A stretch of 64,000 nt of DNA from Polyangium jinanense (lineage in GTDB: Bacteria > Myxococcota > Polyangia > Polyangiales > Polyangiaceae), in the NCBI RefSeq assembly GCF_028435365.1, contig NZ_JAGTJJ010000009.1, positions 1-64,000 on the forward strand. Reading direction: 5' to 3'. Positions 16,228 to 48,451 of this stretch are shown here, piece after piece. The notes beneath the pieces are model-generated. The model was not told the DNA's origin. It ran no database searches and saw nothing but the letters and a program-made list of their open reading frames with translations. The position numbers and the translations under genes were made by a program. How positions within the stretch are numbered: position 1 is the stretch's first letter; every line of letters begins with the position of its first letter.

Positions 16228-16283
16228 CGCCGCCTCCGGGCGGGAATCCTAGGCGATGTCTTTCGAGGTCGGAAGGAAAACGC

Positions 16284-16310
16284 CGGCGCGTGAGGAAAAA
16301 TCACGCGCCG
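16284..16310 (-). terminator. Hairpin downstream of Cys-rich paralogue 2
   Basis: Perfect 10-bp arms (CGGCGCGTGA and complement), 7-base loop. Read leftward it is followed by GCGTTTTCC, a short T-run, which suits an intrinsic terminator for the leftward gene ending at 16328. Confidence 0.6.
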
Positions 16311-16327
16311 ACGCGCGGAGAGACCGC

Positions 16328-17293: not shown

Positions 17294-17508
17294 GGCAAAG
17301 CTCTCCTCCCGGGCCGCATCGCCCGCGGCTCTCTCGACGCCGAGGCCCGAGCCCCCGCGCGCGCGCCTTCCGGAAAAGAACGCGCGCCCTCGCTGGCGGG
17401 GGGCCGCCTGCGAGGGCGTGAGGACTCGGGCCTTTTACGTCCGTGACAGGTGAACAGCTACACGATAGCGCAAGAGGCCGGCGCGCGGGGTGGAGATTCG
17501 CGCGCGGC

Positions 17509-18546: not shown

Positions 18547-18594
18547 TCTCGAAGCTCCTCCACGCCTACGCGGCGTCTTCAATCATTTCCTCGG

Positions 18595-21056: not shown

Positions 21057-23536
21057 AGCTCGGAGACCTCGGAGCGCCGGAGGAAACGCGCGCCGAGGTC
21101 GCGAAGCGGCTCGGGCTGTCGAGCGCGCTCGCCTTCTTCCCTGTGCGGCACCAGAGCCCGACGTGCGCGGCGAAACTCGAAGCGTTCCTGCCGGCCTTCG
21201 CGCCGGACGTGATCCTCGTCGAGCTGCCCGCGCGGTTCGAGGAGCACCTCGAAGCGCTGCTCGATCCGGAGAGCCACGCGCCGTTCGCGATCTGCGCGAT
21301 CACCGAAGACAAACGCCCGCGCTTCGTCGGGCGGCGGGACGGAAGCCACGCCGCGGAGGCGCCCCGATCCCGGGCGTATTACCCGTTCTGCGACTACTCG
21401 CCCGAGCTCGTGGCGCTGCGGTACGCGAAGGCGAGCGGCGCCGAGGTGCGCTTCATCGACCGGTTTTCGCCGCTGCCCGAGGACACGTCGGATCTCGGCG
21501 AGGACGACCTCCCCTCGGCGGAACGCGCGCTCGGCGAGCGGCTCGGGCAGGACGCGGGCGGGCTGCTCGGGCGGAGCCGGTTCACGGCGGCGCTCTGCGC
21601 GCGGGCGGGCGCGCGGGATTTCGACGAGCTGTGGGAGGCGCTGTTCGAGCAAGGAGGCTGGGACGAGAGCCCCGAGGGCTGGGCGCTCGCGGTGGGCGTG
21701 TACGCGCTCGCGACGCGGTGGACGTTTGGTCAGGAGGAGCTCGAAGCGGACGGGACGCTCTCACGCGAGCGGTTCATGGCGGCGAAGATCGCGGAGGCCG
21801 CGGCGCAGAAGGGCAAACGCGCGCTCGTCGTGGCCGGGGCGCTGCACGTGATCGCGCTCGGCGGCGCGCGGGAGACGCTGCCCGCGCTCGAGCGCGCGCC
21901 GAAGGACGACGCGGAAGCGGAGGTGCGGCTCGTGCCGTACACGTTCCCGCGGCTCGACGCGCTGCTCGGGTACGCGCCGGGGATGAGCGGGCCGGCGTTC
22001 TACCAGCACGTGTGGGAGGCGCGCGCGAAGGCGGATCCGTTCGCGCAGGCGGCGGAGCGGGTGCTGCTCGAGACGATCCGGCGGGCGCGGGTCGAAGGCG
22101 ACACGCTCGGGCCGGCGGACGCGATCGCGGCGCTCGCGTTCGCGCGGGAGCTCGCGTCGCTGCGGGGGCGGCCGAAGATCGGGCGGGCCGAGGTGATCGA
22201 GGCGGCGACGAGCTGCTTCGTGAAAGGCGAGCTGCGCGTCTCGGGGCGGCGGGTCGTCGCGGCGCTCGGCGAGGCGCTTCGAGGCAGCCGGATGGGCAAA
22301 CTCGGGCCGACGGCGGGCCCGAGCCCGATCCTGCGGGATTTTCGGGCGACGGCCGAGGCGCTCGGGCTTTTGCCTTCCGGAGGGCCGCCGCGCGGGATCG
22401 AGCTCTCACTCGCGGCGTCGAAGAAGGCGCGGCGGTGCTCGTGGTTCTTGCATCGCACGACGTGGCTCGGGCTCGGGTTCGCGACGCAGGTCGGGGCGGG
22501 CGACGCGGAGGGGTTTGGGGCGAAGGGCGCCCCCCAAGCGTCTACCGAGTTCGAGGCGGCGACGGAGCGCTGGACCGTGGCGTACGCGCCGGAGGTGGAC
22601 GCGCGGCTCCTGGAGCTCGCGGCGGAGGGGGCGAGCGTCGAGGAGGCGGCGGCGCGGCTGCTCGTGCGCGCGGCGCGGGAAGGTGAAGGCCGCGCGGGGG
22701 CGATCGCGGTGTGCGTCGGGCGAGGCGTGCGGATGGGGCTCGACGGCGTGTGCCTGCGGCTCGCGCCGGCGCTCGAGGCGGCGATCCGCGCGGACGACGA
22801 TCCACGATCGCTCCTCGAAGCGGCGCGAAAGTTACGGCGGGTGCGGGCGCTCCGCGCGCGGCTTGGCCTTCCGAAGGCGGCGTGGCTCGACGCGCTCGGC
22901 CGCGCGGCGTACGAGGAGGGAACGCACAGGCTCCCGCGGCTCGCGCAGACCTCGGGGGCGCGGGCCGCGGACGTTCCGGCGCTGCTCGCGGATCTCGGCG
23001 GAGCGGCGCTCGCGGCTGACGGAATGGGCCCCGTGCGGGAGCTCTTGCTGGCGAAGGCGCGGGCGGCGCGGGAGATCGCGCGGGCTGCCTCGCCGCTCGT
23101 GCTGGGTGCGCTCGACGGCCTGCTCGTGAGCCTCGGCGAGGGACGGGGCTCGGAGCTCGGCGCGCATTTCGAGGCGGCGCGGGGGCGTCCCGAGGCGAAG
23201 GGAGCGTACCTCGAAGGCCTGCTCGCGCTCTCGCCGCGCGCGTTGCTCGACGAGCCGTCGCTGCTCGAAGCGCTCGTCGCGCACGTCACCTCGGGCAGCT
23301 TCGAGGGCTTCCTCGCCTCGCTCCCGTCCTTGCGCCGCGCCCTCGCGCGGCTTGGTCCTCGCGAGCTGGAAGAGATTTCTTCACGCGCCGCGGAACGGCT
23401 CGGCCTCGGCGCCTCCGAGGCGCTGCTCGTCTCGCCCTTGCCTCCGGAGGAGGTCGCGCGTCTCTCTGCGTGGGAGCTTCGATGGCTCGAAGCCGAGGCT
23501 GCGTGGGCGGGCCCGTCTTCGGACGCGGATGGCTGA
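21053..23536 (+). CDS. DUF5682 family protein
   Basis: 827 aa. The N-terminal motif PVRHQSPTCAAKLEAFL, PDVILVELPARF, YYPFCDYSPELVALRYA and a central ALVVAGALHVIAL match DUF5682, a family I recall as distantly related to the TraB/TIKI/ChaN fold and normally found with MoxR and VWA genes. The His of the first motif and the GALH motif are candidate catalytic or metal residues. The C-terminal 350 residues are Ala/Arg/Leu-rich helices, perhaps a solenoid. A palindromic element (22510-22540) is read in frame as GFGAKGAPQA. The start overlaps the stop of the MoxR gene. Confidence 0.75.
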   Translation: MKLGDLGAPEETRAEVAKRLGLSSALAFFPVRHQSPTCAAKLEAFLPAFAPDVILVELPARFEEHLEALLDPESHAPFAICAITEDKRPRFVGRRDGSHAAEAPRSRAYYPFCDYSPELVALRYAKASGAEVRFIDRFSPLPEDTSDLGEDDLPSAERALGERLGQDAGGLLGRSRFTAALCARAGARDFDELWEALFEQGGWDESPEGWALAVGVYALATRWTFGQEELEADGTLSRERFMAAKIAEAAAQKGKRALVVAGALHVIALGGARETLPALERAPKDDAEAEVRLVPYTFPRLDALLGYAPGMSGPAFYQHVWEARAKADPFAQAAERVLLETIRRARVEGDTLGPADAIAALAFARELASLRGRPKIGRAEVIEAATSCFVKGELRVSGRRVVAALGEALRGSRMGKLGPTAGPSPILRDFRATAEALGLLPSGGPPRGIELSLAASKKARRCSWFLHRTTWLGLGFATQVGAGDAEGFGAKGAPQASTEFEAATERWTVAYAPEVDARLLELAAEGASVEEAAARLLVRAAREGEGRAGAIAVCVGRGVRMGLDGVCLRLAPALEAAIRADDDPRSLLEAARKLRRVRALRARLGLPKAAWLDALGRAAYEEGTHRLPRLAQTSGARAADVPALLADLGGAALAADGMGPVRELLLAKARAAREIARAASPLVLGALDGLLVSLGEGRGSELGAHFEAARGRPEAKGAYLEGLLALSPRALLDEPSLLEALVAHVTSGSFEGFLASLPSLRRALARLGPRELEEISSRAAERLGLGASEALLVSPLPPEEVARLSAWELRWLEAEAAWAGPSSDADG
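22510..22540 (+). repeat. Palindromic element inside DUF5682 gene
   Basis: GGGTTTGGGGCG followed closely by GCGCCCCCCAAGCG, the same ends as the intergenic element at 13592-13640. It sits in frame in the coding sequence and adds about ten residues in a likely loop. Confidence 0.5.
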
Positions 23537-35089: not shown

Positions 35090-35505
35090 GCGGCGTCTAG
35101 AGACTTGCCTACGGCGACAAAGCCAACGCAAGAATTCCGAGCCGTGGAAGCCGGGGAAGAGCACTCCGCGACCTCACCGCCCCGTGAATTACGTCGTAAA
35201 CGTCACCTACAGGATCCCCCGTAAGCGAAATCGAGGGTTTCTCCTGGCCCGAACCAGGTGGCCACCCCAATGAAACGGAGACCTGCGTGTGCTAGTGGAC
35301 GATTGGTGTCCATTCGACACGCACGGCCGCGAGGACCGCTGCGTTCGGTGGCCACGAGGAGAGGCGCGTCGCGTTTTCTTTGGCGATTCACACGGAGTGG
35401 ATTCGCGCTTGGATGGCCGGGATCGTAGAGAGTCCTCGGTAGACTTGGGGCGCGCCGTCGCCTGGTAGCGGGCTCGCGGCGGTGCTGCTCCACGAAAGGC
35501 AACCC
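35090..35505. other. Intergenic region before vgrG
   Basis: No gene or clear regulatory motif is seen. The promoter of the VgrG-radical SAM operon should lie here. The sequence is less GC-rich than the surrounding genes. Confidence 0.4.
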
Positions 35506-37812
35506 ATGGTACCGATCGCTCACGCATCGCAGACCAACCATCTCCGGATCACCACCGGCTCGAGCGAGCTCTGCGACGTTCGCCAGTATTCGGTCACCGA
35601 GCAGATCTCGTCGCTGTTCGTCGTCGACCTGGTCGTCGTCAGCGAAAATCTCGCGATCGAATTCGACGCCGTCGTCGGCAAGCCGGCACGCTTCACCATC
35701 GTCGGTGACCGCTACGAACGCTCGTGGTCAGGGTTGTGCAACCGCTTCCAGCTCGCGACGGTCGAGGAGAAGGGACTGTCCACGTACGAGCTCACGATCG
35801 TCCCCGACCTCTGGCTCGCCACCCAGCGGCGCAATCACAGGAGGTTCCAACACGTATCGGAGCCGGACATCGTCCTCCGTATCCTGGACGAGTGGGGCAT
35901 CCAGCCGGAGATGAAGCTCTCGGCAACGTACAAGAAGCGGGAGTACCGCGTCCAATACGGCGAGTCCGACTATGCCTTCATGTGCCGTATGCTCGAGGAC
36001 GCTGGGATCTCGTTCTACTTCGTCCAGGCGGGCACCGAGACCAGGCTCGTCCTTTCCGATGCGCCGCACAGGAGTGAGCAACGCGGGAGCGCGATCGCCT
36101 TCAAGGACGACATCTCGATGGTCACGGGGGAGTATGCGACGCAAGTGCACGTCGGCCAGCAGGTGCGCCCGGGGCGCTACACGTTGCGGGACAACGACTA
36201 CCGCCTGCGCGCCGATTATCAACTCGTCTTGAGCGCAGAAGAGGCGGACCTGGAGATCGAAAGGAAGCTCGAGCGGTACCATTACGTGCCGGGGGCGTTC
36301 CTTTTCGGAACGGACACGGGCGAGGGCACGCCGTTCGCGGACGCCAAGGGGAAGAGCAGGACCGATGAGGCGGAGGGCGCGATCCTCTTGCAAAAGCGGC
36401 TCGACGCGAAGCGCGAGGACGCGAGGATCTGCACCTTCGAGACGAACGCGCTCGACCTCGCGCCGGGCACGGTCTTGACCATGCTGGATCACCCGCGGCC
36501 GGAGCTCGGCCCGGACAGGCGCCTGCTCGTCGTGAAGGCGACCCACGCCGGCACGCCGTTCGACGCCTTCTCCCAGCGGTGCGAGGCACGGAGCGCGGAT
36601 ATCCCCTACCGGCCACCTCTTGCCACGCCGAAGCCGAAGGCGATCGGCATCGAGAGCGCAACCGTGGTGGGTCCGCCCGGCGAGGAAATCCATACGGACG
36701 AATTCGGCCGGGTGCGGGTGCACTTCCATTGGGACCGCGAGAGCAAGATGGACGAGGACAGCTCTTGCTGGATCCACGTGAGCCAGCCGCTCGCCGGACC
36801 GGGGTTTGGCGTTATCAACTTGCCGCGCGTGGGGCAGGAGGTGCTGGTGGATTTCCTGGGCGGAGATCCCGACCGGCCCGTCATCGTCGGCCGGGTTTAC
36901 ACGAATGTACAGAAGGTGCCCTACACGTTGCCCGAGAACAAGACCCAGAGCGGGTGGAAGAGCCAGTCGACGCCGGGCGGAGGCGGATCCAATGAGCTCC
37001 GCTTCGAGGACGCGAAAGGCAGGGAGCTCGTCTTCTTGCAGGCCGAGAGGGATCAGAAGAGCGTCGTGAAGAACGACGAGGCAATCACGGTCGGCAACGA
37101 CCGAACGAAGCGCGTGCAGAACGACGAGACGGTCTCGATTGGCAACAACCGCACGAAGCTCGTGACGAAAAACGAGGCGCTCACGATCGGAAACGACCGC
37201 ACGAAGCTCGTACAAAACGACGAGATGGTCTCGATCGGCAACAACCGCACGAAACTCGTGCAAAACGACGAAGAGGTCACGATCGGCAACGACCGCACGA
37301 AGCTCGTACAAAACGACGAGGAGGTCACGATCGGCAATGACCAGACGAAGCTCGTCGGGAACAACGAGCGCGAAGTCACCGGGGTGAACCGGAGCATCGT
37401 CGTCGGCGTGAACCGCTCTGCGCAGATCGGCGCCGTCGACGCAGTCACCGTGGGGGAAATGCACACGGTGTCCGTCGCGTCCTCGTCCAGCACGATGACG
37501 GACCAAAAGATCGTGTTCGACACAGGGGCCGGGGCGACGATCACCATGGAGGGCGCGCACGTCCGGATCGACGCCGCGGAGTCGGTCACGATCAGCAAGA
37601 AGAAAATCGTGCTCGACACGGGGGCTGGAGCAACGATTACCTTGGACGGATCCAGCGTTGAAATCAACGCCCTCAACATCAGCATCATCGGCGGCAATGC
37701 TGTCAACGTCGCTGGCGTCACACAGACCAATGTCGGGGGAATCTCCGGGCTTACCCTTGGCGCCCCGTCCGGCGACATCATCATCAGGGGAGTCATGGTC
37801 AAGCTCAACTGA
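35506..37812 (+). CDS. vgrG: VgrG / TssI spike protein
   Basis: 768 aa. The gp27-like base (IVPDLWLATQRRNHRRFQ, PDIVLRILDEWGIQPEMKL, YGESDYAFMCRMLEDAGIS) is followed by the gp5-like OB region (DEFGRVRVHFHWDRES, SCWIHVSQPLAGPGFG, PRVGQEVLVDFLGGDPDRP) and a beta-helical spike. VgrG trimers form the needle of type VI secretion systems and carry effectors or PAAR tips. The spike has seven near-perfect 16-residue units (TKLVQNDEEVTIGNDR type, about residues 515-625). Start at MVPIAHAS, with AAGG just upstream. It leads the operon with two radical SAM genes and a PAAR-like gene. No sheath or baseplate genes are in the window. Confidence 0.93.
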   Translation: MVPIAHASQTNHLRITTGSSELCDVRQYSVTEQISSLFVVDLVVVSENLAIEFDAVVGKPARFTIVGDRYERSWSGLCNRFQLATVEEKGLSTYELTIVPDLWLATQRRNHRRFQHVSEPDIVLRILDEWGIQPEMKLSATYKKREYRVQYGESDYAFMCRMLEDAGISFYFVQAGTETRLVLSDAPHRSEQRGSAIAFKDDISMVTGEYATQVHVGQQVRPGRYTLRDNDYRLRADYQLVLSAEEADLEIERKLERYHYVPGAFLFGTDTGEGTPFADAKGKSRTDEAEGAILLQKRLDAKREDARICTFETNALDLAPGTVLTMLDHPRPELGPDRRLLVVKATHAGTPFDAFSQRCEARSADIPYRPPLATPKPKAIGIESATVVGPPGEEIHTDEFGRVRVHFHWDRESKMDEDSSCWIHVSQPLAGPGFGVINLPRVGQEVLVDFLGGDPDRPVIVGRVYTNVQKVPYTLPENKTQSGWKSQSTPGGGGSNELRFEDAKGRELVFLQAERDQKSVVKNDEAITVGNDRTKRVQNDETVSIGNNRTKLVTKNEALTIGNDRTKLVQNDEMVSIGNNRTKLVQNDEEVTIGNDRTKLVQNDEEVTIGNDQTKLVGNNEREVTGVNRSIVVGVNRSAQIGAVDAVTVGEMHTVSVASSSSTMTDQKIVFDTGAGATITMEGAHVRIDAAESVTISKKKIVLDTGAGATITLDGSSVEINALNISIIGGNAVNVAGVTQTNVGGISGLTLGAPSGDIIIRGVMVKLN

Positions 37813-37886
37813 GCGAGGTCGAGATCGCTCCGAAGAACTCCGCAACGATGGGCCTGGCGCTACGGCGCTGGGCGGGGACCACCGCC

Positions 37887-39359
37887 ATGTTCAAACCGTC
37901 GCGATACAACATCTTCGTCCACCTCCGGAATGGTCGGTGCCTCGCGTACAACTCCTTGAGCGGTGGCCTCGGGCTCTGGGAAGCCGACGAGTGGGCGCTC
38001 TACCAGCGGATCGAGGCCGGGGAGGCTCCTGATCCACTGGATTCATCGGTGGGCGAAATGGTGCAGGCCGGATACCTGGTGAGCACCGCCATGGATGAGC
38101 TTCGGACCATGGAACAGGCCTACCGCGCCCACCGCTTCGACCCCGGTTCGATGATCCTCACCATCGCTCCGACCATGGCCTGCAATTTCGGGTGCGATTA
38201 TTGTTTTCAGGGGCAGGACAAACCGGCGGGCAGCATGACCCCGGAGGTGCAGGACGCCATCCTCGCTCATGTCGAGCAGCAGGCGGCGGGAGCTCGCTCC
38301 CTCCACGTCGCCTGGTACGGCGGGGAGCCGCTCGTCCGGCGCGAGATCATCGAGCGACTCTCGGATCGTCTGATCGAATGCGCGGCTCGACGCCACATCG
38401 CCTACAGCGCGATGATGGTGACCAATGGCTATCTGCTCACGGCCGACGTGGCTCGGTCTCTTTGGGCGCGGCGTGTGAAGACCATCCAGGTCACGCTGGA
38501 CGGCGCCCCCGAGGACCACGACCAGCGCCGCGCGCTTCTCTCGGGCAAGCCTACGTTCGATCGCATTGCCGAGAACCTCCTCGCGGCGGTGGAGGCCACC
38601 CCGATCACCTTCTCGATCCGCGTGAACATCGATCGCCGGAATGCCGATCGGGTCGTCGATCTCCTCGATCTCCTCTGGCGCCGTGGCCTCGGGGGCCGCC
38701 GGAACTTCCAGGTGTACTTCGCGCCGGTCGAGGCTATTACCACGGGTTGCCATGGTGTCACCGACGCTTGCCTGAGCAAGCGCGAATACGGAGATCTGGA
38801 GGCGCGGCTCGCCCGGCACGCATTCGACAGAGGGCTCTCCTCGCTGCCATACCCGCCCCGTTTCCGGGGCACCTGCGCGGCCGTGCGTCCGCAGGGGTTC
38901 GTCATCCTCCCGACGGGAGAAATCCATAAATGCTGGGACACCGTGAACACGCCCGGGCGGGCGGTGGGTACCATCTTCGACATGGCCGCCATCCAAAGAA
39001 GCGCCGAGGCGCTACGTTTCACGGACTGGAGTCCGCTCGATAACGAGAGCTGCCGCTCGTGCCGGATCCTGCCGAGCTGCGCGGGCGCGTGCGCCTACAA
39101 GTTCCTCTACGCCGAGGACACGCGGGGCGAGCAGGCCGTTCTGCCCTGCCCGAGCTGGAAATACAACATCAAGGAGCGACTGGTTCTGCGAGCAGAAAAA
39201 TCAGGGGCCATCGGTCCGCACGATTACGACCGCAAGGCCATTCGCACGGATCCAGCCGAGCTCTGCACGGAAGCACATGCCCCGGACGCGGCGCTGCATG
39301 AAACAACACGGACCTCCCGCGCCACACGCCGCGTGTCCCTCCCCGTCGTGCCTTTTTGA
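37887..39359 (+). CDS. Radical SAM/SPASM peptide maturase
   Basis: 490 aa from MFKPSRYNIF (an ATG 13 codons upstream is also possible). The radical SAM cluster motif CNFGCDYC (CxxxCxxC) follows MILTIAPTMA. AWYGGEPL and VTLDGAPEDHD are typical of peptide-modifying SPASM enzymes. The C-terminal SPASM region has GEIHKCWDTV, CRSCRILPSCAGACAY and CPSW, enough Cys for auxiliary iron-sulfur clusters. Such enzymes form thioether or carbon-carbon links in Cys-rich peptides. It lies directly before the gene for a PAAR-like protein with 29 regularly spaced Cys, its likely substrate. The N-terminal 100 residues may hold a peptide-recognition element. Confidence 0.88.
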   Translation: MFKPSRYNIFVHLRNGRCLAYNSLSGGLGLWEADEWALYQRIEAGEAPDPLDSSVGEMVQAGYLVSTAMDELRTMEQAYRAHRFDPGSMILTIAPTMACNFGCDYCFQGQDKPAGSMTPEVQDAILAHVEQQAAGARSLHVAWYGGEPLVRREIIERLSDRLIECAARRHIAYSAMMVTNGYLLTADVARSLWARRVKTIQVTLDGAPEDHDQRRALLSGKPTFDRIAENLLAAVEATPITFSIRVNIDRRNADRVVDLLDLLWRRGLGGRRNFQVYFAPVEAITTGCHGVTDACLSKREYGDLEARLARHAFDRGLSSLPYPPRFRGTCAAVRPQGFVILPTGEIHKCWDTVNTPGRAVGTIFDMAAIQRSAEALRFTDWSPLDNESCRSCRILPSCAGACAYKFLYAEDTRGEQAVLPCPSWKYNIKERLVLRAEKSGAIGPHDYDRKAIRTDPAELCTEAHAPDAALHETTRTSRATRRVSLPVVPF

Positions 39360-39398
39360 TGGCCCACGTTTCCGTCACCCCCACGAGGAGAACAGCCC

Positions 39399-40385
39399 GT
39401 GCCCAATCTGGTCGTGGTGAACAACGCAAGCCTCGTGTGCAATACCGGAGCGCTGCCCGGCAGGCTTCAGGTCGGATCGAACACGGTTCAGATCGGCGGG
39501 GTGGACGCGGCGCAGATCGATCACACCGTCCCCATTGCCAACATCCCCTCGTTCGGGATGTGCATGCTCTTCGGGATGCCCTGCATTCCCATGACGGGGG
39601 GCACCTGGTCGATCATGGTCCCCGGGGTGGGGCTCACCCAGGCGTCGAACATCCTGACGGAGGGCGCGATTCTGCCGTGTAAACTGGGCGGGCTCATTTC
39701 GATCCTCGACCCCGGTCAAAATACGGTCGTGGTCAACAACGTCCCTGCGCTCGCTGTCGAGACCAGCCCGAACGGCGAAGCCCCGATCGAGGAACAGCCT
39801 GCCGACGAGGATGGAGGGCTCTGCGGCGCCGCCGTCTGCTCGGGTGAAGAAGCCGCGCTGGATGCGTGCGGCGCCGCCGTCTGCGGTGGCGCAACGTGCG
39901 GCGGCGCTGCCTGCGCCGCGGATGCGTGTGGAGGGGATGCCTGCGGCGGGGATGCATGCGGCGCCGCCGCGTGCACCGGCGCGGTCGGCGGTGGCGGGGC
40001 GTGCGGCGCGGCGTTTTGCGCTGGAGACATCTGCGGCGTCGCATTCGGCGGGGCTGGGGGCGGCGCCGGCGGGGTTTGCGGCGCGGACGCGTGCGGCGCT
40101 GCGGTCTGCGCGGGGGCTGCGTGCGGCGCCGCCGCCTGCGCGGCGGACGCCTGCGCAGCAGACGCATGCGGCGCCGATGCCGGAGGCGCCGATGCGTGCG
40201 GGGGGCAGGCCTGCGGCGGGGATGCCTGCGGAGGGCAGGCCTGCGGCGGCGATGCCCATGGCGTGAACGCCTGCGCCGCGCAGGCCTGCGGCGCGAATGC
40301 CTGTGGGCTGGACCTCACGCCGGCGGACGCTTGCGTCATGGATGCGTGCGGCCTCGACATCATCCCTGTCATACCGTTGATTTGA
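39399..40385 (+). CDS. PAAR-like DUF4280 protein with Cys-pentapeptide tail
   Basis: 328 aa, GTG start with AGGAG eight bases before. Residues 1-115 are a DUF4280/PAAR-like tip domain (VVNNASLVCNTGALPGRLQV, PIANIPSFGMCM, GGLISILDPGQ). After an acidic linker (IEEQPADEDGG), residues 145-320 are about 36 pentapeptides in unbroken register, consensus C-G-x-x-A (CGGDA, CGADA, CAADA, CGGQA), with 29 Cys, ending in a hydrophobic IIPVIPLI. Gly, Ala, Cys and Asp make up almost all of it. Flanked by two radical SAM maturase genes (39 and 6 bp), it looks like a RiPP-type precursor fused to a spike tip: the tail is the probable substrate, VgrG the probable carrier. Metal binding without modification is an alternative. 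Confidence 0.85.
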   Translation: MPNLVVVNNASLVCNTGALPGRLQVGSNTVQIGGVDAAQIDHTVPIANIPSFGMCMLFGMPCIPMTGGTWSIMVPGVGLTQASNILTEGAILPCKLGGLISILDPGQNTVVVNNVPALAVETSPNGEAPIEEQPADEDGGLCGAAVCSGEEAALDACGAAVCGGATCGGAACAADACGGDACGGDACGAAACTGAVGGGGACGAAFCAGDICGVAFGGAGGGAGGVCGADACGAAVCAGAACGAAACAADACAADACGADAGGADACGGQACGGDACGGQACGGDAHGVNACAAQACGANACGLDLTPADACVMDACGLDIIPVIPLI

Positions 40386-40391
40386 GGTCCC

Positions 40392-42335
40392 ATGATTCAC
40401 TTGGTCCACATGCCATTCGGCTCGATCCTACGGCCTCCGCTCGCGCTGGGTTTGATCAAGGCGCAGCTTCGGCAGGCGGGGCTCGACGCCCGGGTCTTCA
40501 ACCTAAATCTGGCGTTTGCCCATCAGATCGGACCCGGACGTTATGAAATGCTGGCCAGATGGAAAGGGGTGGAGCCCCAGGTCGGCGAATGGCTGTTCGC
40601 GGAATCCGTGTGGGGGCGGTTCGGTCCATCCGAGGACGTGTTTCTCGCCCAGTGCGGCGACGAGCTCGAGTCCTTGGCGGTCAAACAGCCACGAGCGTGG
40701 CTTCGGAAGATACGAGCCAAGGCGGTCCCGGTCTTCCTCGACGCCTGCGTCCAGTGGCTCCGGGAAGCCGCAGAGACGCGCGTCGTTGCCTTCGGATGCA
40801 CGTTCTTCCAGACCCTGCCGGCGCTGGCCCTCGGGCGCCGCCTGAAGCAGGCGGCGCCGCACGTGAAGCTGGTCTATGGCGGCGCGTGCTTCCACGGCGA
40901 GCAGGGTGATGAGCTCATCCATAAAGCGCCCTGGATCGACGCCGTCTCGACGGGGGAGGCCGACGACATCATCGTGCCGCTGTTCCGCGCCCTCTCGAAG
41001 GGCCGTCCACCAGAGGGACTTCAGGGAATCCTCTGGCGCGACGACCAGGGGAAGATCCGATCGGGGCCGCCGGCCCGCCCGGTCGGCACGGAGGTCCTGA
41101 ATACCCTGCCCGCGCCCGATTTCGACGACTTCTTCGAGGAGGCCTCGAAGGTGGGCCTCGCGCGCTCCCCAGGCTGGAAGGAGCGTGTCTTTCTGCCGTT
41201 CGAGAGCGCTCGCGGCTGCTGGTGGGGCGCCAAGAGCCATTGCACGTTCTGTGGGCTGAACGCCGAGGGGATGGTGTCTCGCCCCTTCGATCCCGGCCAC
41301 GTGCGGTCGGCGCTCCAGACCCTTTCTGCGCGTTATCCGATACGGCGCATGCACGCCACCGACAACATCCTCACCATGGATGCATTCAAGGACCTCTTGC
41401 CCTGGCTCGCCGGGAGGCCGCTGGGCCCCGACGCGCGCTTCTATTATTGCGTGAAGTCCAACTTGAACCGGGCTCACGTGACGGCCCTGAAGAGCGCGGG
41501 GATCGCCTACATTCAACCCGGCATCGAGAGTCTGTCCACGGGGATCCTCCGCGCCATGCGCAAGGGGGTCACGGGTCTTCAGAATGTCTTCCTCCTCAAG
41601 ATGTGCCGGGAGATGGGTATCGTGCCGTTCTGGAACCTGCTGATCCGGGTGCCGGGCGAGCGGCCCGAAGACTATGCGCAGATGGCTGAATGGATGCCCA
41701 AGCTCGTGCACCTCTGGCCGCCGCTCGGCGGAGCGCCGGCGGTGGAATGCCACCGGTATAGCCCCTATTTCCATGACACAGGGCGATGGACGGCTCAAAT
41801 CCGTCCCATGGCCTGGTACCGCTTCCTGTACCCCCCGGAGCACGTGAATCTTTCCCGGGTAGCCTATTACTTCGAGGCTGATTGGAAGGAAGTCCTCCCG
41901 GAGGAGGCTCACAGGCCGGTCATCGAGGCGACCCTGGAATGGCTGCGCGCCTGGACCGAGTCCTCCGAACTGCCCGCCCTCACGAGCATGCCGGGAGCGT
42001 CAGGGGGGCTTTTCCTCGTCGATACCCGTTGCGGGCAGGCCGAGTCCCAGGTCTTGAGCTCCCTGGAGGCAAAGGTCTACCAGGCCATTGCCGAGCCGGC
42101 CTCGCCATCGAAGGTCCTCGCCCAGCTTCGATCTACGCCGGGAATGGACCTGTCCGAGGCCAGCCTGCGCGAGCTTCTCGCGCGCTTCGTACGAACGGGC
42201 GTTGCGCTCGAAGAGGATGGCTCTTTCCTCGCGCTCGCGCTTGCCCCGAACGCCGCGGCGATCCCGCTCGCCGTCCGGCAGCGCCTCGTCCGCCCAGCCG
42301 TGACGACGCGCTCCGGCGGCCGGAAAGCATCATGA
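40392..42335 (+). CDS. RiPP-maturation radical SAM enzyme, cobalamin-type
   Basis: 647 aa. The N-terminal B12-binding-like domain (PPLALGLIKAQLRQAGLDA, VVAFGCTFFQTLPALALG, VYGGACFHGEQGDELI) precedes a radical SAM core with SARGCWWGAKSHCTFCG (Cx7CxxC), the hallmark of the RiPP maturation radical SAM C-methyltransferase family. The C-terminal 130 residues may bind peptide. Family members methylate unactivated carbons in RiPP precursors. GAGG precedes the ATG; only 6 bp separate it from the PAAR-like Cys protein. Its stop and the stop of the converging helical-repeat gene are one base apart. Confidence 0.88.
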   Translation: MIHLVHMPFGSILRPPLALGLIKAQLRQAGLDARVFNLNLAFAHQIGPGRYEMLARWKGVEPQVGEWLFAESVWGRFGPSEDVFLAQCGDELESLAVKQPRAWLRKIRAKAVPVFLDACVQWLREAAETRVVAFGCTFFQTLPALALGRRLKQAAPHVKLVYGGACFHGEQGDELIHKAPWIDAVSTGEADDIIVPLFRALSKGRPPEGLQGILWRDDQGKIRSGPPARPVGTEVLNTLPAPDFDDFFEEASKVGLARSPGWKERVFLPFESARGCWWGAKSHCTFCGLNAEGMVSRPFDPGHVRSALQTLSARYPIRRMHATDNILTMDAFKDLLPWLAGRPLGPDARFYYCVKSNLNRAHVTALKSAGIAYIQPGIESLSTGILRAMRKGVTGLQNVFLLKMCREMGIVPFWNLLIRVPGERPEDYAQMAEWMPKLVHLWPPLGGAPAVECHRYSPYFHDTGRWTAQIRPMAWYRFLYPPEHVNLSRVAYYFEADWKEVLPEEAHRPVIEATLEWLRAWTESSELPALTSMPGASGGLFLVDTRCGQAESQVLSSLEAKVYQAIAEPASPSKVLAQLRSTPGMDLSEASLRELLARFVRTGVALEEDGSFLALALAPNAAAIPLAVRQRLVRPAVTTRSGGRKAS

Positions 42336-42336
42336 T

Positions 42337-43230
42337 TCAGACGTCGATCCCTCGTCGCCGCCACGCCTCCCTGATCCTGGGATACTCCGCCTCGTAAATG
42401 TCGAGCTGGCGCTGCACGCCAGCGAGGATCCGAGCACTCTCGGCGGAATGGTCCTGTCGAAATAGGGCGGCTATCTGTTGTTCGATCTCTGCGAGGCGAT
42501 CGCACATTTGGGCGAGCTGGATCAGGTTCGTCCGTTCGCGAGGTTTGCCCTCGAAGAAGACCTGAAACTCGGTGGATATCAACGCCGCCTCGTGCTCCAG
42601 GCTGCGGAGGCGTTCGCCTAGCGGAGCCGCCGCCTGGACGCGCTCGATCTCCCGCGCCTCGTTCTGCAGCGTGCGGAGCTGAGCCCGTCCCCGCTCTCGG
42701 CAGAGAGCCACGCGAGCATCCGAGAGCGCATCGAGCTCCGGATCCTCCAATGTCGAGAGGATATCGGCCAAGCTCGCGGCAGAGCGCCGGAGCAGCCCGG
42801 CCCGGCCCGTGAGCCGCGGGCGCCCCGCGAAATGGATGCGGTAAAGGAGGAGCTGATCGTTCAACCGCGTGACCTGGGAAGCGAGCCGCGCTGCCGTGGG
42901 CTGCGCGTGGATTGCCTTGCGGATCTGCGCAAGCTCCACGGCGAACAGGGCGAGGTGGCCGCCAATGGCCGCGGCCATGCCTTCGATCCCCGCGCCACTC
43001 GCTCGCGTGGCCATGATTTCGACCTGCAAGCTGCGAAGGCGCTCCGCCATCTCCTGGAGCAGTGCCGTATCGCGAGTCACGCGGGGTTTGCCCGCGAACT
43101 TGCGCGCATAGGCGGCCAGGAGGTGGCGGGCCTCTCCCACGGGAAAACGCAGCGCCTCGGGCACGGCCCCCGGCGCCGGCATCGCGACCGGAGCCGAGAG
43201 ATTGAGCGTCGGCGGCACCAGCATTCTCAT
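42337..43230 (-). CDS. Three-repeat helical protein of the spike locus
   Basis: 297 aa. No known family recognised. Three repeats of about 85 residues each open with a (F/Y)xxxF(A/E)G(K/R)PR motif: YARKFAGKPRVTR, YRIHFAGRPRLTG and FQVFFEGKPRERT. Each is followed by Leu/Ala/Glu-rich helices, probably coiled coils. No signal peptide or membrane segment. It is the last gene of the five-gene leftward operon and its ATG overlaps the stop of the DUF2169 gene. It could be a chaperone or adaptor for the spike tip; this is inferred from position. Confidence 0.65.
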   Translation of the reverse strand: MRMLVPPTLNLSAPVAMPAPGAVPEALRFPVGEARHLLAAYARKFAGKPRVTRDTALLQEMAERLRSLQVEIMATRASGAGIEGMAAAIGGHLALFAVELAQIRKAIHAQPTAARLASQVTRLNDQLLLYRIHFAGRPRLTGRAGLLRRSAASLADILSTLEDPELDALSDARVALCRERGRAQLRTLQNEAREIERVQAAAPLGERLRSLEHEAALISTEFQVFFEGKPRERTNLIQLAQMCDRLAEIEQQIAALFRQDHSAESARILAGVQRQLDIYEAEYPRIREAWRRRGIDV

Positions 43231-45197
43231 GAGGCGTCAGTTCCTTCCCTCTGCAACCCTTTGAGCGCGTCTCGCACGTGTTTCCGGAGCGCCCTGTCTT
43301 GCGCCAACCTCTCGACCCAGACGCGCTCGATTCGCATGGCAGCGCCCTGCGGCAGCGAAAGCGCCGAAAGCGCCTCGGCGATCGCCCCCTGTTCCGATGC
43401 GAGCGTCAGGCGCGCATACTCGCTCGCCTGGATGGGCCCGCGCTCCTTCTCGATCTGATCGACGTACGCCGCGTCAAACCTCCTGAGCAGCCCGGGCTTT
43501 CCCTTGCTCGTCTCGGTCCGGATCGCGTCCATCCAGCGTCGCTCGAGCGCTGCCCACTCCATGGGCCCGAGGCCGTTCTCGCGGAGGATCTCCGTCGTCT
43601 CGGCGCGGTGGCATGCTATCGCTGCCGCGATTGCCGCGCACTTCTCAAGCGGGAGATCCTTGGATTCCGTGGATGACTGCGGCGGCTCAGGTAAAACCGC
43701 CGTACGCGCGACCATTTCGGACCCAGCGAGCGGCCCGATCATGGGTGGAGGCGCCGGCGCAGCGGCGGTCTGTCCTTGCTCAATCGGCGGCTCGACCGGC
43801 GTCGGTGCAGGCGGAGGGGGTGACGAGACGTGCTCGATGATCGGCGGAGACGGCGCGGCGGCTCGGAAAGGCATTACGCTACGCGTAGCCGCTGCCTCAT
43901 TCTCTTCCGGGACCAGAGCAAGCGTTCCTGTGGAAGGCGCCTGCTCGCGGGGCACGGAGTTTTGCCCCAGAGCTGCACCGGTACCCGACGTCGGGGCTCC
44001 CGAGGGGACGGGTGGCGGAACAAATGGAAGGAGTGGCAGGTGCTTCGCCGCAGCGGCTGCGTCGGAGGAGAGCGCAAGCGTGGTCGTGGGCTGTGTCGCT
44101 CCCACGCAGCCAGCCCGATTCCGGCTCGGCGTGGGTTCGATTCGCGAGATACTTTCTTCGCCGGTCATCTGGACGGCTGCCACGATCCGCAACGCCGAAA
44201 GTGCCGCCTCGCTGGCAATGGGGAAGCTGCGCCGGCACACCACGGTGCAGCGCTGTTCGTCCCCGTCGATCCGCACCGTGTCCAGGTGGAGATCGAGCGG
44301 TTGGCCGTCGGGTACGCCGAATGCGGAAAGGCCGAAGACCCGCGCCGCGCCGCGCAAACCCGGGAGGCGCGTCCGGAAGCGAGGCAGCGCCGGGTGCAGA
44401 CCTTCGAGTACGAGCCACTCGTCCCCGCGCAGCCAATCGATTCGCTGATCGAGCGGCGCAGCCTGGAAGTACGACCAGTTGAAGCCCTCGGGGATCTCGG
44501 CGATGGGTCCATCGAGCACGTGGCGGGGCACCGAGCCGAGCAGTCGTTTGCGGATGGGCCAGGCGCGCCCGATCGGCCCGAAGCCGGCGGGACGGTGCGG
44601 TTCGGTGGGATCGAGGATATATGGCTCCTGTTCGTCCGTGGGCGGCTCCAGGCCAAATGGGTTCTCTTGGCCGTCCATACCGCGAGTCGACCGTTCGTAG
44701 ACCATGGGCATGCGCTGCAAGCCACGAGGGGCGCGGATCAGCAGCCTCTTGTCGAGTAGGAGCCGATCGTCATCGAAAATCGCGACCCGCACAGGCAAGG
44801 CTTGTACGGGGTTGCCCTCGGGCGCATACGCGTGTCCGGTGAAGAGCACATCGGCACGCGCCAGGTAGGGGGCGAGATCACTCGTGAACCGGACGCTGCG
44901 CGCCGGGTTGTTGCCGTGGTGAACGTCCGAACGCAGTATCTCCTGCGGCTCCGTTCGAGACATCGGCGCGTCCGGCGCGAAGGTGAACGTGGCTTTGGCA
45001 ATGACGGTGACGTGGAGCTGGCCTTCGAAGCGCCAGGCGACGGCGGTCGACGCCGTCGTCGATTCGTGTTGTGGCTCCGGGACGGCCGGAAGATGAGCGC
45101 TGCGGAGCATGAGCGGCGGTTTCCCATCCATAAGCGTTCCAATATCCTGTCCAGCACACGTTCGGGACGGCTTTGCAGTCGACTGGCTGGCGCTCAT
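43227..45197 (-). CDS. DUF2169 protein (type VI-associated)
   Basis: 656 aa. The N-terminal 330 residues match DUF2169 (VAWRFEGQLHVTVIAKATF, SDLAPYLARADVLFTGHAY, GFGPIGRAWPIR), a family that accompanies VgrG, PAAR-like and effector genes and is thought to help load effectors. A Pro/Ala-rich linker (PPPPAPTPVEPPIEQ) leads to a helical C-terminal domain (about 540-656) with ENGLGPMEWAALERRWMD. Starts and stops overlap both neighbours by 4 bp. With the DUF4280 tip and VgrG opposite, it most likely works in assembling the modified spike. Confidence 0.82.
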   Translation of the reverse strand: MSASQSTAKPSRTCAGQDIGTLMDGKPPLMLRSAHLPAVPEPQHESTTASTAVAWRFEGQLHVTVIAKATFTFAPDAPMSRTEPQEILRSDVHHGNNPARSVRFTSDLAPYLARADVLFTGHAYAPEGNPVQALPVRVAIFDDDRLLLDKRLLIRAPRGLQRMPMVYERSTRGMDGQENPFGLEPPTDEQEPYILDPTEPHRPAGFGPIGRAWPIRKRLLGSVPRHVLDGPIAEIPEGFNWSYFQAAPLDQRIDWLRGDEWLVLEGLHPALPRFRTRLPGLRGAARVFGLSAFGVPDGQPLDLHLDTVRIDGDEQRCTVVCRRSFPIASEAALSALRIVAAVQMTGEESISRIEPTPSRNRAGCVGATQPTTTLALSSDAAAAAKHLPLLPFVPPPVPSGAPTSGTGAALGQNSVPREQAPSTGTLALVPEENEAAATRSVMPFRAAAPSPPIIEHVSSPPPPAPTPVEPPIEQGQTAAAPAPPPMIGPLAGSEMVARTAVLPEPPQSSTESKDLPLEKCAAIAAAIACHRAETTEILRENGLGPMEWAALERRWMDAIRTETSKGKPGLLRRFDAAYVDQIEKERGPIQASEYARLTLASEQGAIAEALSALSLPQGAAMRIERVWVERLAQDRALRKHVRDALKGLQREGTDAS

Positions 45198-46147
45198 TTT
45201 TCGCGCGCGCAGCGGAACCCGAGGAAGGCCTCGCGGCTCTCGGGTGTGAACCCGAGCTCGAAGGTGGTCGCCAGTCCCTCCGTGGAATGTGCGAAATCTC
45301 CGCCGCGGGCCTCCCGGCCATTGTCCTCGTCTTTATCGCTGAGGTTCGCGCAATCGTTGCAGGGCGTCGGATGTGTGCCGTGGTAATCCAGAAGCCACTC
45401 CGACATGCTTCCCGCCAGATCAGCGTGCCCCGATTCTCCATCGCCGGCGGGCGATCTCGATCCGACGCGCGGGATCAGGCACCCCATGTTGGTGGTATCG
45501 CAGCCATACGCGGCGAGGTCCGGGGTCGGCGTGGCCTCGCCCCACGGATAGGTCCGTTGCTCGTTGCCGTGGGCGGCCGCGTAGTTCCACTCGGCTTTCG
45601 TCGGGAGACGGGCTTCGTCCCAGGCGCAGAAGGCGAAGGCGACGTACCAGGAGACGCAATTGATGGGGAGCTCCTCGTTCGGGCCTGGTCCGTCGGTCCA
45701 CGTCCGAAAATTCGGATCACAGCCCAGCGAAGCTTCGAGCTCCGCCCGATCTCTGGGCAAATGGTCGTCCCAGCCAGGATCCCACCCGCTGCCCGCGAGC
45801 CGCGGGTGGCTCCCGTGGTCCTTTTGGGGCTTGTTCTGTGGATATCCCGCGACGAACTGCCGAAATCGACCCACCGTCACCTCGAAACGATCGAGCCGAA
45901 AATCAGCGACCGTGGCGGGGAACTGAGGATCGTTGACGCGGTTGAACGTGCCGCCCAGCACGACCGCGTCCGCGCAACAGCTCTCGTCGCCGTCCGGCCC
46001 GCAGCGGGGCTCGACCCGATCACACCGCGGCAGCGAGAACACGTTTGGTTCCACGTCCGGAAAACACGCGGTCGAGGCGACCGAGAACAGGGCCGTCGCA
46101 GCAGAGAGCTCGACGACAGGAAGCCGCATTCGATCACGTCCGTGCAT
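45194..46147 (-). CDS. FGE/SUMF1-fold lipoprotein
   Basis: 317 aa. The signal sequence MRLPVVELSAATALFSVASTAC follows a short start; the ATG at 46147 overlaps the TAA of the gene before it (TAATG), so I kept it, though ATG at 46129 is possible. The mature part is a formylglycine-generating-enzyme-type domain: FRLDRFEVTVGRFRQFVAG, PINCVSWYVAFAFCAWDEA, RLPTKAEWNYAA and a closing FLGFRCAREK. Catalytic Cys pairs of true FGE are not evident. In Pseudomonas T6SS, a periplasmic FGE-fold protein (TagR) promotes the kinase PpkA; this gene sits in an operon with a Ser/Thr kinase, so a similar sensing role is plausible. Confidence 0.82.
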   Translation of the reverse strand: MHGRDRMRLPVVELSAATALFSVASTACFPDVEPNVFSLPRCDRVEPRCGPDGDESCCADAVVLGGTFNRVNDPQFPATVADFRLDRFEVTVGRFRQFVAGYPQNKPQKDHGSHPRLAGSGWDPGWDDHLPRDRAELEASLGCDPNFRTWTDGPGPNEELPINCVSWYVAFAFCAWDEARLPTKAEWNYAAAHGNEQRTYPWGEATPTPDLAAYGCDTTNMGCLIPRVGSRSPAGDGESGHADLAGSMSEWLLDYHGTHPTPCNDCANLSDKDEDNGREARGGDFAHSTEGLATTFELGFTPESREAFLGFRCAREK

Positions 46148-47160
46148 TAGAAGCTCCCCACGATCGTCGCGCCCGCGCCGTCGGGTGCAATCCACGGGAG
46201 CGTAATGGCCGTCCGCGTCGGCTCCTTCGCAAACCGCGATCCGGCGATCCCCACGATCGCAGCCCCGATCACGATCATCCCCGCGCTGCCCAGCCCGACG
46301 AAGAGTCCGAGATCGCGGTTTTTGCGCGCATTGTCGGCTGCGTAGTCGTACCCAGGGTTGCAATAGGTACCGCCCCGGACGTCGCGACAGTTTTCTTGCA
46401 ATGCGCCGATCGCAGCCCGGTTGTCGACGAGGAATCCGATCGCCGCCCCGGAGAGCCCAATTCCGACGGCCCCGGCGACCCACGCCCAGGCGGGGACGCC
46501 ACCTCCGGTCTTCCCGTCTGCTCTGGCCTCTGGTTCGGGCTCGAGCGCCAGCTCGACTGTGACGCTTTTGCCCTCCTCGAGCGTGACCGTGCGGGTCTCC
46601 GTCTTGTGGCCGGGCGCGCTCGCGCGGATCTCGTGGGGGCCCGGATCGGCGGGCAGCGGTTCGCCGAGCGCTGCAGGAAGGAGTGCCTTGCCATCGCGCT
46701 GCACTTCGAGACCCGCCGGCGCGTGCGCGACCACGACACGGAGCTTCGGCACCCGCGGCGAAAGCGCCGTGATCCCGTTGTTCGCGATTTCCTCGAGGCC
46801 TCTCCGCCGCTGCTCCCCATGGGTCTCGTGGTTCAGACCGAGGGCGCGGTGGTAGTCCTCCCAGGCCGAGGCGAGCTTGCCCTCCTGCTCGTGACACCGG
46901 GCGAGATTGAGCGCGGTGCTCGCCGAAGGGTGCAGCGCGAGGCTGGCCTCGAACTTTGGACAACCTGCGGCATAGTCGCCATTCTCGACGAGCGATCGCC
47001 CGGCCTTGAAAAGCGCCTCCGCGGCCGCCGCATCATGCGCCTTGGGTTCCTGCGCGCCCGCCCCGGAGGCGCAAACTCCGAGCCCCACAGCACACGCAAG
47101 CCCCGCGATCCGCGCTGGAACGCCGCAAACGCGGATGTCACATATGCTGGAGTAGGTCAT
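46147..47160 (-). CDS. TPR-PEGA membrane protein
   Basis: 337 aa. Signal peptide (MTYSSICDIRVCGVPARIAG...GAGAQ), then a TPR region (AEALFKAGRSLVENGDYAAG, CPKFEASLALHPSASTALN, LARCHEQEGKLASAW), a PEGA-like beta domain (LEVQRDGKALLPAAL, GPHEIRASAPGHK) and two membrane helices near the C-terminus (VAGAVGIGLSGAAIGFLV, GLGSAGMIVIGAAIVGIA). This layout is common beside myxobacterial Ser/Thr kinases. Start at MTYSS, 23 bp inside the kinase gene end. It probably relays or anchors an envelope signal to the kinase. Confidence 0.8.
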   Translation of the reverse strand: MTYSSICDIRVCGVPARIAGLACAVGLGVCASGAGAQEPKAHDAAAAEALFKAGRSLVENGDYAAGCPKFEASLALHPSASTALNLARCHEQEGKLASAWEDYHRALGLNHETHGEQRRRGLEEIANNGITALSPRVPKLRVVVAHAPAGLEVQRDGKALLPAALGEPLPADPGPHEIRASAPGHKTETRTVTLEEGKSVTVELALEPEPEARADGKTGGGVPAWAWVAGAVGIGLSGAAIGFLVDNRAAIGALQENCRDVRGGTYCNPGYDYAADNARKNRDLGLFVGLGSAGMIVIGAAIVGIAGSRFAKEPTRTAITLPWIAPDGAGATIVGSF

Positions 47161-48451
47161 CGGTCTTCCTCGAAGGGGCAGGAGGGGGGCGGCGGCCGGC
47201 CTTCCCTGAATGCGTCGACGTGGACGGCGGGGCCGCTGAGGCGCTCGGCGATGCGGACACAAGAGGCGTCGTGTCGAGCAGCAGCGCCGCCTCGGGCGCC
47301 GCGAGAGCGGCGCTGGGCGGCGAGGGCTCCGCTGGCGCTTTCGCCTGGGGCCCTGCGAGCACATCGGGCGGCGAAGGCGCGCGCAGCCATGCGAAGAGGC
47401 CGAGGCCAAGCACCGCTGCGGCGATGGCCGCGCCGATCGTGATCGCGGTGCGTCGGCCACGGCTCGGCAGCGGGGTGTGAGGCCGCGTCTGGGCCGACGG
47501 CGACAGCGTACCCATTTCGGGTTGGGACATGGGGATCGGGGCCGCAATCTCGATGCCGGAGCCGATGTCAGGCCCGGAGCTCCTCGATGCATGCACCCCG
47601 ACGTTCCTGGCCAGGCTCGCAAACGCCTCGACGAGCTCGGCCGCGCTCTGGAAACGCTGTTTTGGATCTCGCGCAAGTGCGCGCTGGAAGAACCCATCGA
47701 TCTCGGGGCCGAGGTCGGGCGCCACCTCCGAGGCGAGCGGAATGGGCGCCGTGCAGACATCCACGAGCACCTCGCCGATCTCATCGCCCGGGAAGGGGAG
47801 CCGGCCAGTGAGGCACTGGAATGCAATCACGCCGAGGGACCAGAGATCGGTGCGGTGATCGACGTGGTTGCTCCTGCGTACCTGCTCCGGGCTCATGTAA
47901 CTCGGGGAGCCGAGCAGCGCGCCGGTGCGCGTCGCCTGTGCGCCTGCGATGAGCCCGGTGGACTTTGCGATCCCGAAATCGACGACCTTGACGATCTGCT
48001 CGTCGCCGAGGCGAGCGAGGAAGATGTTTCCGGGCTTGAGATCGCGGTGAATGAGGCCGAGTTCGTGCGCGCGGCGCAGAGCCTTGCCGACCTGCTCGAG
48101 GATGTCCAGGGTGGCCCGGAGCGACAGCCGGCGCTCGCGTGCGAGGCAGGCCGCGAGATCCTCCCCCTCGAGGAGCTCCATCACGATGTAGGGCGATCCG
48201 TCCTCGACACCATAATCGTGAACCTGCGCCGCATTTGGGCTCTTGAGGATGGCCGCGACCTTGGCCTCGCGCTCGAAGCGCGCGCGCAGGTCGGCGGAGG
48301 AGGCGACCTGCGGCGCCATGAACTTGATCGCGATATCCACGTCGAGTTGCAGGTGTCGAGCTACCCACACGCTGCCCATTGCGCCCCGTGCCAGCGCACG
48401 TTCGAGACGATAACGACCTGCGATGATGCTGCCTGTCGTGTGCTCGGGCAC
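47138..48451 (-). CDS. Ser/Thr protein kinase (PpkA/Pkn-like)
   Basis: 437 aa. Complete Hanks-type kinase domain (residues 12-275): glycine loop ARGAMGSVW, IAIK, HRDLKPGNIF, VDFG and SPSYMSPEQV. A Pro/Ser-rich linker leads to one membrane helix (TIGAAIAAAVLGLGLFAWL) and an Ala/Pro/Ser-rich periplasmic tail without a sensor domain. All catalytic residues are present, unlike the kinase at 13643. It starts the five-gene overlapping operon opposite the VgrG operon. In type VI systems a similar kinase controls firing by phosphorylating a FHA protein; none is seen here. Confidence 0.9.
   Translation of the reverse strand: MPEHTTGSIIAGRYRLERALARGAMGSVWVARHLQLDVDIAIKFMAPQVASSADLRARFEREAKVAAILKSPNAAQVHDYGVEDGSPYIVMELLEGEDLAACLARERRLSLRATLDILEQVGKALRRAHELGLIHRDLKPGNIFLARLGDEQIVKVVDFGIAKSTGLIAGAQATRTGALLGSPSYMSPEQVRRSNHVDHRTDLWSLGVIAFQCLTGRLPFPGDEIGEVLVDVCTAPIPLASEVAPDLGPEIDGFFQRALARDPKQRFQSAAELVEAFASLARNVGVHASRSSGPDIGSGIEIAAPIPMSQPEMGTLSPSAQTRPHTPLPSRGRRTAITIGAAIAAAVLGLGLFAWLRAPSPPDVLAGPQAKAPAEPSPPSAALAAPEAALLLDTTPLVSASPSASAAPPSTSTHSGKAGRRPPPAPSRKTDDLLQHM

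Follow-up and report, generated by a model that had tools for sequence, protein, structure and literature searches.

In a 64,000-nt stretch of Polyangium jinanense DNA (NZ_JAGTJJ010000009.1, positions 1-64,000, forward strand; hereafter the window), a run of four + strand genes at 35506-42335 places a VgrG spike protein and a PAAR-like DUF4280 protein together with two radical S-adenosylmethionine (SAM) enzymes. The DUF4280 protein ends in a long, cysteine-rich tail of five-residue repeats, and we propose, leaning slightly to this reading, that it is the tip of a type VI secretion system (T6SS) spike and that both enzymes act on the fused tail, which would be kept on the tip and delivered as payload. 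On sequence grounds, it is well supported that the tail resembles ribosomally synthesized and post-translationally modified peptides (RiPPs), and parts of it are already modelled by NCBIfam. What is new is the spike-tip head; the tail and its enzyme cassette are known in parts. Searches of the open-access literature found no description of a spike tip that is itself a RiPP precursor, which is no proof of absence, nor did they find contractile injection and radical-SAM peptide modification joined, and the fusion of a RiPP-type tail to a spike tip appears undescribed. If true, the proposal would bring these two processes together: a ribosomal peptide with many cross-links could travel as a payload fused to a secretion spike. 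Work on radical SAM enzymes would also gain a long substrate of repeats whose predicted rule is simple (C-x-x-Z, minus 2 Da per Cys), and searching for one modified core behind different delivery heads could bring up more cases.

The gene run and its products

The run and the parts of the tip protein are as follows.
35506..37812, + strand: VgrG spike protein, 768 aa from ATG; TIGR03361, PF05954, PF22178, PF04717
37848..39359, + strand: rSAM1, radical SAM/SPASM RiPP maturase of the TIGR04463 family; Cx3CxxC
39399..40385, + strand: DUF4280 PAAR-like tip protein with CefA-type tail, 328 aa, GTG start; PF14107 and NF038108
39414..39719, + strand: DUF4280 head (Pfam), residues 6-107, with four conserved Cys (14, 55, 62, 94)
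39819..40382, + strand: Cys tail, residues 141-328 (188 residues), 29 Cys in one phase of 5, with A/D/E/N/Q at +3
40326..40382, + strand: C-terminal signature, residues 310-328, common to CefA-type tails on other heads
40392..42335, + strand: rSAM2, predicted radical SAM C-methyltransferase, TIGR03975; Cx7CxxC

The gaps between the four genes are 35, 39 and 6 bases, and each product passes curated models. The initial annotation had described same-strand genes with short gaps for VgrG, a radical SAM/SPASM enzyme, a DUF4280 protein and a further radical SAM enzyme, and this four-gene operon is confirmed as real and beyond chance. Alternative starts are possible for VgrG (an upstream GTG at 35482) and for rSAM1 (at 37890).

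Several features point to a spike tip. VgrG, which scores 461.4 bits on TIGR03361 against a cut-off of 186.35, lies two genes upstream of the DUF4280 gene in the same run, and the DUF4280 head itself reaches 50.8 bits on PF14107 (cut-off 26.3), with C14, C55, C62 and C94 invariant in all seven proteins that combine such a head with a Cys tail. According to work on IglG, a DUF4280 protein that binds metal with a contribution from its four Cys, four conserved Cys define the DUF4280 PAAR-like family (PMC5014421). The window protein shares this domain and Cys set with IglG as portrayed there, but IglG bears an N-terminal helical extension, whereas the window protein bears a C-terminal Cys tail and has two adjoining radical SAM genes (PMC5014421). 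The PDB sequence that the DUF4280-tail profile matches best is 9jg8_B (E 2.9e-4); by the title of its entry, this chain comes from the structure of a cargo complex on the VgrG spike of a T6SS.

Both enzymes fall into families of peptide maturases. rSAM1 passes TIGR04463 (595.5 bits vs a cut-off of 525) with its Cx3CxxC at residues 112-119; on the CefB maturase model NF038107 it reaches 217.7 bits, under the cut-off of 600 and hence outside CefB as modelled, and on the PapB model 99.2 bits, under the cut-off of 340. rSAM2 passes TIGR03975 (616.7 bits vs 281.85) and reaches 20.7 bits on the B12-binding model PF02310, under the cut-off of 32.1. The Cx7CxxC that had been noticed in the second enzyme is indeed present, at residues 276-287. 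This unconventional motif is known in RiPP C-methyltransferases such as PoyC (PMC5682303), and rSAM2 has it in common with that B12 radical SAM type as described there; PoyC differs in that it methylates a polytheonamide-pathway peptide. Trees of the two enzymes (15 rows for rSAM1, 10 for rSAM2) contain one well-supported fork each and leave the window unplaced, so we claim no origin for the cassette. A search of phage records with rSAM1 gave 18 matches, every one below 60% identity.

The cysteine tail and the C-x-x-Z pattern

Residues 141-320 of the tip protein form 36 pentads in register, with Cys in 29 of them, 20 CG pairs and 12 strict CGxxA units. All 29 tail Cys occupy one phase modulo 5, against a maximum of 15 when the tail was shuffled 20,000 times. 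The initial annotation had counted about 36 C-G-x-x-A pentapeptides with 29 Cys; the numbers of pentads and Cys stand, but only 12 of the pentads are strictly of that form. To judge from the related sequences, the unit is better described as C-x-x-[A/D/E/N/Q], because the distance between Cys may be 5, 7 or 10 and the class of residue at +3 does not change with it. Neighbouring Cys in the window tail are 5, 10 or 15 apart, with no CxxC pairs. The tail passes NF038108, the model of the "Cys-every-fifth RiPP peptide CefA" (57.9 bits vs a cut-off of 30), and the C-terminal signature pattern occurs in 74 of the 88 proteins examined. As for the tail being a RiPP-like substrate, as first suggested, this holds at the sequence level through the CefA model, the maturase models and recurrence in nine other loci; its modification is what we infer.

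Other identities for the tail were considered and rejected. With regard to a pentapeptide-repeat protein (PF00805), PF14107 alone was reported at E up to 1, and penta_MxKDx reached 17.3 bits against 41. A chance or out-of-frame feature is contradicted by the homologues, the register and the shuffles. A six-frame search of 282 genomes of the phylum with NF038108 gave matches in 37, above the cut-off in 7, and the weak ones look like low-complexity noise; an alignment-based search of IMG/VR returned 43 pattern matches and no relative.

The residue at +3 was counted in 88 proteins (87 from databases plus that of the window), less 14 without the C-terminal signature and seven with fewer than eight Cys in a run of multiples of five, which left 67; four of the seven (P0001, P0010, P0050, P0051) were counted separately. 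The +3 residue is A, D, E, N or Q in 1089/1109 Cys pentads vs 75/276 Cys-less in-register pentads. Position -2 tilts the opposite way (841/1042 before Cys, 258/276 before Cys-less pentads), as would be expected if that residue is paired with the preceding Cys. Taken singly, 58 of the 59 proteins with at least two Cys-less pentads follow the +3 direction, P0017 being opposite, and thinning to 37 less similar tails leaves 646/658 vs 45/149, with 28/29 proteins in the same direction. Within the window protein, the rule holds for 29/29 tail Cys and 0/4 head Cys. The same class makes up a fraction of 0.963 at +3 vs 0.603 at +4, and the PapA-type CX3D/E ranthipeptide pattern was not found.

We suggest that the +3 pattern possibly marks a cross-link between each Cys and its +3 residue. 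The position disfavours Gly, Ser and Thr, which, as a conjecture, would suit attack at an unbranched beta-carbon. PapB links Cys to Asp in CX3D and, by the account in PMC9413430, tolerates CXnD with n from 0 to 6, which makes a C-X2-Z reaction plausible in chemical terms for residues of this kind. Freyrasin, made by PapB, and the NxxcA ranthipeptides carry Cys thioethers made by radical SAM enzymes, as reported in PMC9413430 and PMC8326336 and as proposed here.

The pattern has a plainer, though unlikely, explanation that would be uninformative on cross-linking yet compatible with the spike-tip proposal: the tails may simply be built of two types of repeat unit, Cys pentads ending in A or D and spacers ending in G, S or T. 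Spacer pentads do form a distinct type in many relatives, and the relatives share kinship and were found through similarity to the window tail. P0017 runs opposite, 7/32 Cys of the six other DUF4280 heads also meet the rule, and 4/7 of the window's own Cys-less pentads end in D or N; the rule therefore rests on the relatives, since the window alone does not separate the two pentad classes. All of this tempers the cross-link reading. Against two unit types stands the agreement of individual proteins, both before and after thinning, and also the persistence of the rule in tails of 7/10 spacing (P0001 16/16, P0010 19/19, P0050 16/16, P0051 18/19). Tails with Cys mostly 7 and 10 apart in turn are a subtype (P0001, P0010, P0050, P0051, P0064) that occurs behind DUF4280 and behind another head.

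Distribution of the tail, its enzymes and the spike-tip head

A scan of genome contigs for rSAM1 gave ten loci (L001-L010), to which a Methylomagnum ishizawai plasmid (L155) was added. A Cys-every-five tail and an rSAM2 relative are present in 8/10 of the scanned loci (L002-L008, L010), so that with L155 nine other loci have a Cys tail and relatives of both enzymes. They span Cyanobacteriota, Pseudomonadota, Myxococcota, Verrucomicrobiota and Bacillota. Their rSAM1 relatives are 38-57% identical to that of the window; the rSAM2 relatives are 47-51% identical in the scanned loci other than L007 (opposite strand, 30%) and L008 (upstream, 37%). The two exceptions are L009, merely 28% identical to rSAM1, and L001 (Microseira), where a short lectin-like start comes after rSAM1 and the stretch examined contains neither a Cys tail nor rSAM2; resolvase- and transposase-like genes follow that start (L001 11467-14076). 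The initial annotation had held that homologous loci keeping both enzymes without the Cys tail would refute it, and none of the nine is of this kind (0/9).

The heads in front of these tails differ. By Pfam, L006 and L155 carry ricin and crystallin domains and L010 crystallin and fascin-like domains, while the head of L007 is a leader without a Pfam match that ends in a GG motif, near a Peptidase_C39 ATP-binding cassette (ABC) transporter and an HlyD-like protein. On the Methylomagnum ishizawai plasmid pRS11DPr1, CefA, a TIGR04463 maturase and a RiPP maturation radical SAM C-methyltransferase are annotated in a row. That set has the tail model and both enzyme families of the window, with the TIGR04463 enzyme likewise alongside; it differs in its ricin/crystallin head and in the small membrane-type protein that follows, whereas the window has a DUF4280 head and VgrG in the operon. 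TssC was found in only 1/10 genomes of the rSAM1 loci, and the cassette is therefore not in itself part of a T6SS.

A small protein with an apparent N-terminal membrane segment recurs in six CefA-type or related loci, without a match in the window, L005, L007-L010 or L130, and could be an accessory or self-protection protein.
L001, 14143-14643: small membrane-type protein
L002, 7677-8126: small membrane-type protein
L003, 16217-16678: small membrane-type protein
L004, 15355-15822: small membrane-type protein
L006, 13395-13853: small membrane-type protein
L155, 11416-11883: small membrane-type protein

Six more database proteins, known from their protein sequences alone, join a DUF4280 head to such a tail (P0001, P0002, P0010, P0025, P0050, P0051). 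Head-to-tail profile searches, which scored the best six candidates or fewer per genome, listed among their matches in 377 genomes of the phylum none that ran from the head past model position 194/286, those past 155 holding stop codons; in 398 genomes of the phylum of a Thiothrix genome, none of the matches listed ran past position 165/293. None of the DUF4280 genes read in 26 + 8 fetched loci had a Cys tail; with one exception, they stopped by about residue 135. When the DUF4280 head (residues 1-122) was the sole query of a protein search, 0/115 candidates scored at E <= 0.001. TIGR04463 was above its cut-off in 0/59 relatives and in 0/183 genomes of the order of the nearest genome, in which 22% of the 31-letter words sampled from the window recur. 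The expectation that Cys-tailed DUF4280 or PAAR-like genes would lie next to radical SAM genes across myxobacteria was thus not borne out: the fusion is rare, the cassette sits on other heads in the loci examined and TIGR04463 is above its cut-off in none of the 183 genomes of the order. Judging by the sequences searched, the DUF4280-tail combination is rare and not a general myxobacterial feature.

Proposed mechanism, alternatives and neighbouring genes

In the mechanism that we favour, the DUF4280 domain would bind metal, take a PAAR-like fold and cap the adjacent VgrG. The tail would be a CefA-type RiPP-like core on which both radical SAM enzymes act ahead of spike loading: rSAM1 probably links the thiol of each Cys to the +3 residue (C-x-x-[A/D/E/N/Q]), and C-methylation of some residues is probably the work of rSAM2. 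Since the C-terminal signature is common to tails whose heads are unrelated, the docking site of the enzymes is probably the C-terminus of the tail itself, not a leader. The tail would stay attached, and the spike would bring, on its tip, as many as 29 small thioether rings into the target, where an antagonistic activity may follow. A similar core stands behind a C39-exporter leader and behind lectin/crystallin domains, so the route of delivery most likely depends on the head, and the tail would be the payload. A bolder and more tentative claim, which taken as a whole we think somewhat more apt to fail than to hold, is that the spike tip is the uncleaved precursor of a radical-SAM-stapled, C-methylated, injected warhead, that the core is portable, with three or more types of head (spike tip, exporter leader, lectin/crystallin), and that C-x-x-Z is a new cross-link accepting Ala, Asp, Asn, Glu and Gln.

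A number of observations temper this proposal. Modification, bond type and injection are proposed from sequence, and retention of the tail is the weakest step of the mechanism: 4/7 DUF4280-tail proteins, the window's included, have a GG no more than six residues ahead of the first tail Cys, so cleavage has to be reckoned with. Only P0002 (45.2 bits) of the four DUF4280-tail proteins scanned passes the CefA cut-off of 30, with P0001 at 19.8, P0010 at 29.2 and P0025 at 24.7 bits. No near relative confirms the operon, because TIGR04463 is above its cut-off in none of the 183 genomes of the order. AlphaFold models are poor, with a mean predicted local distance difference test (pLDDT) score of 38.7 for the whole tip protein (most tail blocks near 30) and 55.3 for the head alone, and fold searches consequently lend weak support. 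No immunity gene was recognised among the part of the window's open reading frames (ORFs) that was scanned. The T6SS core of the window's own genome is presumed from relatives: TssC is above its cut-off in 6/6, that is, in the nearest genome and five more of its genus. Finally, DUF2169, a domain encoded nearby and a proposed chaperone of VgrG-DUF4150 tips, is described in PMC11883445 with DUF4150 tips, not DUF4280, and its pairing with DUF4280 at this locus is our supposition.

Three other accounts of the tail compete with delivery of a retained payload. The one we take most seriously, though we think it improbable, holds that the modified tail is no toxin but serves structure or adhesion, as a stapled rod that would stiffen the tip or attach to surfaces. 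The tail consists mostly of small residues in strict register, like tails are joined in L006, L010 and L155 to ricin-type lectin and/or beta/gamma-crystallin binding modules, and the lack of a recognised immunity gene would suit this account as well. A C39 peptidase-ABC exporter arrangement is typical of secreted bacteriocin-like peptides, and the leader-type L007 lies near such an exporter, which argues the other way. Polymorphic toxins swap heads around one payload; we liken the core with its several heads to these, and a payload is therefore favoured over a structural role. A survey of more than 1,300 PAAR-linked toxin genes likewise counts 40.3% as C-terminal extensions of PAAR proteins (PMC8651086). 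PAAR effectors with C-terminal toxin domains, as presented in that survey, resemble the window protein in having an N-terminal tip domain and a C-terminal extension, but theirs is a toxin domain, whereas here it is a RiPP-type repeat with no recognised toxin domain; none of the terms "radical SAM", "RiPP" and "pentapeptide" occurs in the text of PMC8651086.

More doubtful still is cleavage of the tail, which would then be released as a RiPP of its own, with the DUF4280 domain as a leader only. The GG motif of four of the seven proteins would fit, as would the leader-type relatives with a GG motif, among which L007 has a C39 peptidase; yet P0010, P0050 and P0051 lack such a GG, the 27 window ORFs scanned include no Peptidase_C39, and VgrG lies two genes upstream. 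Least probable of all, in our judgement, is that the 29 thiols remain free as metal ligands, the spike delivering or withdrawing metal ions while the enzymes act elsewhere. So many Cys on a protein with a conserved head Cys set might suggest it, and IglG, as described, binds metal through a contribution of its four Cys (PMC5014421). However, two radical SAM maturases flank the gene, relatives of both stand beside such tails in nine other loci, the residue at +3 depends on Cys in a way that simple metal ligation does not predict, and the window tail spaces its Cys 5, 10 or 15 apart with no CxxC pairs.

Beyond the run, two genes on the opposite strand are of uncertain or presumed membership in the operon.
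42337..43230, - strand: 297-aa protein without family; operon membership uncertain; no NCBIfam match and no Pfam family above cut-off
43227..45197, - strand: DUF2169 protein (PF09937, 172.2 bits), possible spike-tip chaperone; membership presumed

A search for a DUF4150 partner was confined to a six-frame text search for PIPY, a weak test, and gave one match (+ strand, 49466), out of frame with the local ORF. Three of the six genus genomes (loci L125-L128) have VgrG-like and DUF2169-like genes, and L126-L128 also carry a kinase resembling that of the window at 47138-48451; in L128 other ORFs lie between VgrG and DUF2169. The 297-aa gene was tried and rejected as a cassette marker, its relatives occurring in 7/39 genomes; in six of those seven genomes the stretches around them (L119-L124, 4.4 to 19.9 kb) contain no VgrG, rSAM1, rSAM2 or DUF2169 match. 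A 36% identical relative of the 297-aa protein lies in Microseira (L001 16149-16916), about 5 kb from the TIGR04463 enzyme. Farther out, genes past DUF2169 (45194-48451, - strand) encode an FGE-sulfatase-domain protein (PF03781) and a Ser/Thr kinase, a DUF5682 protein is encoded at 20426-23536 (+ strand; PF18934, 311.2 bits), and three adjoining predicted genes at 15364-18582 (- strand) have lipoprotein-like starts.

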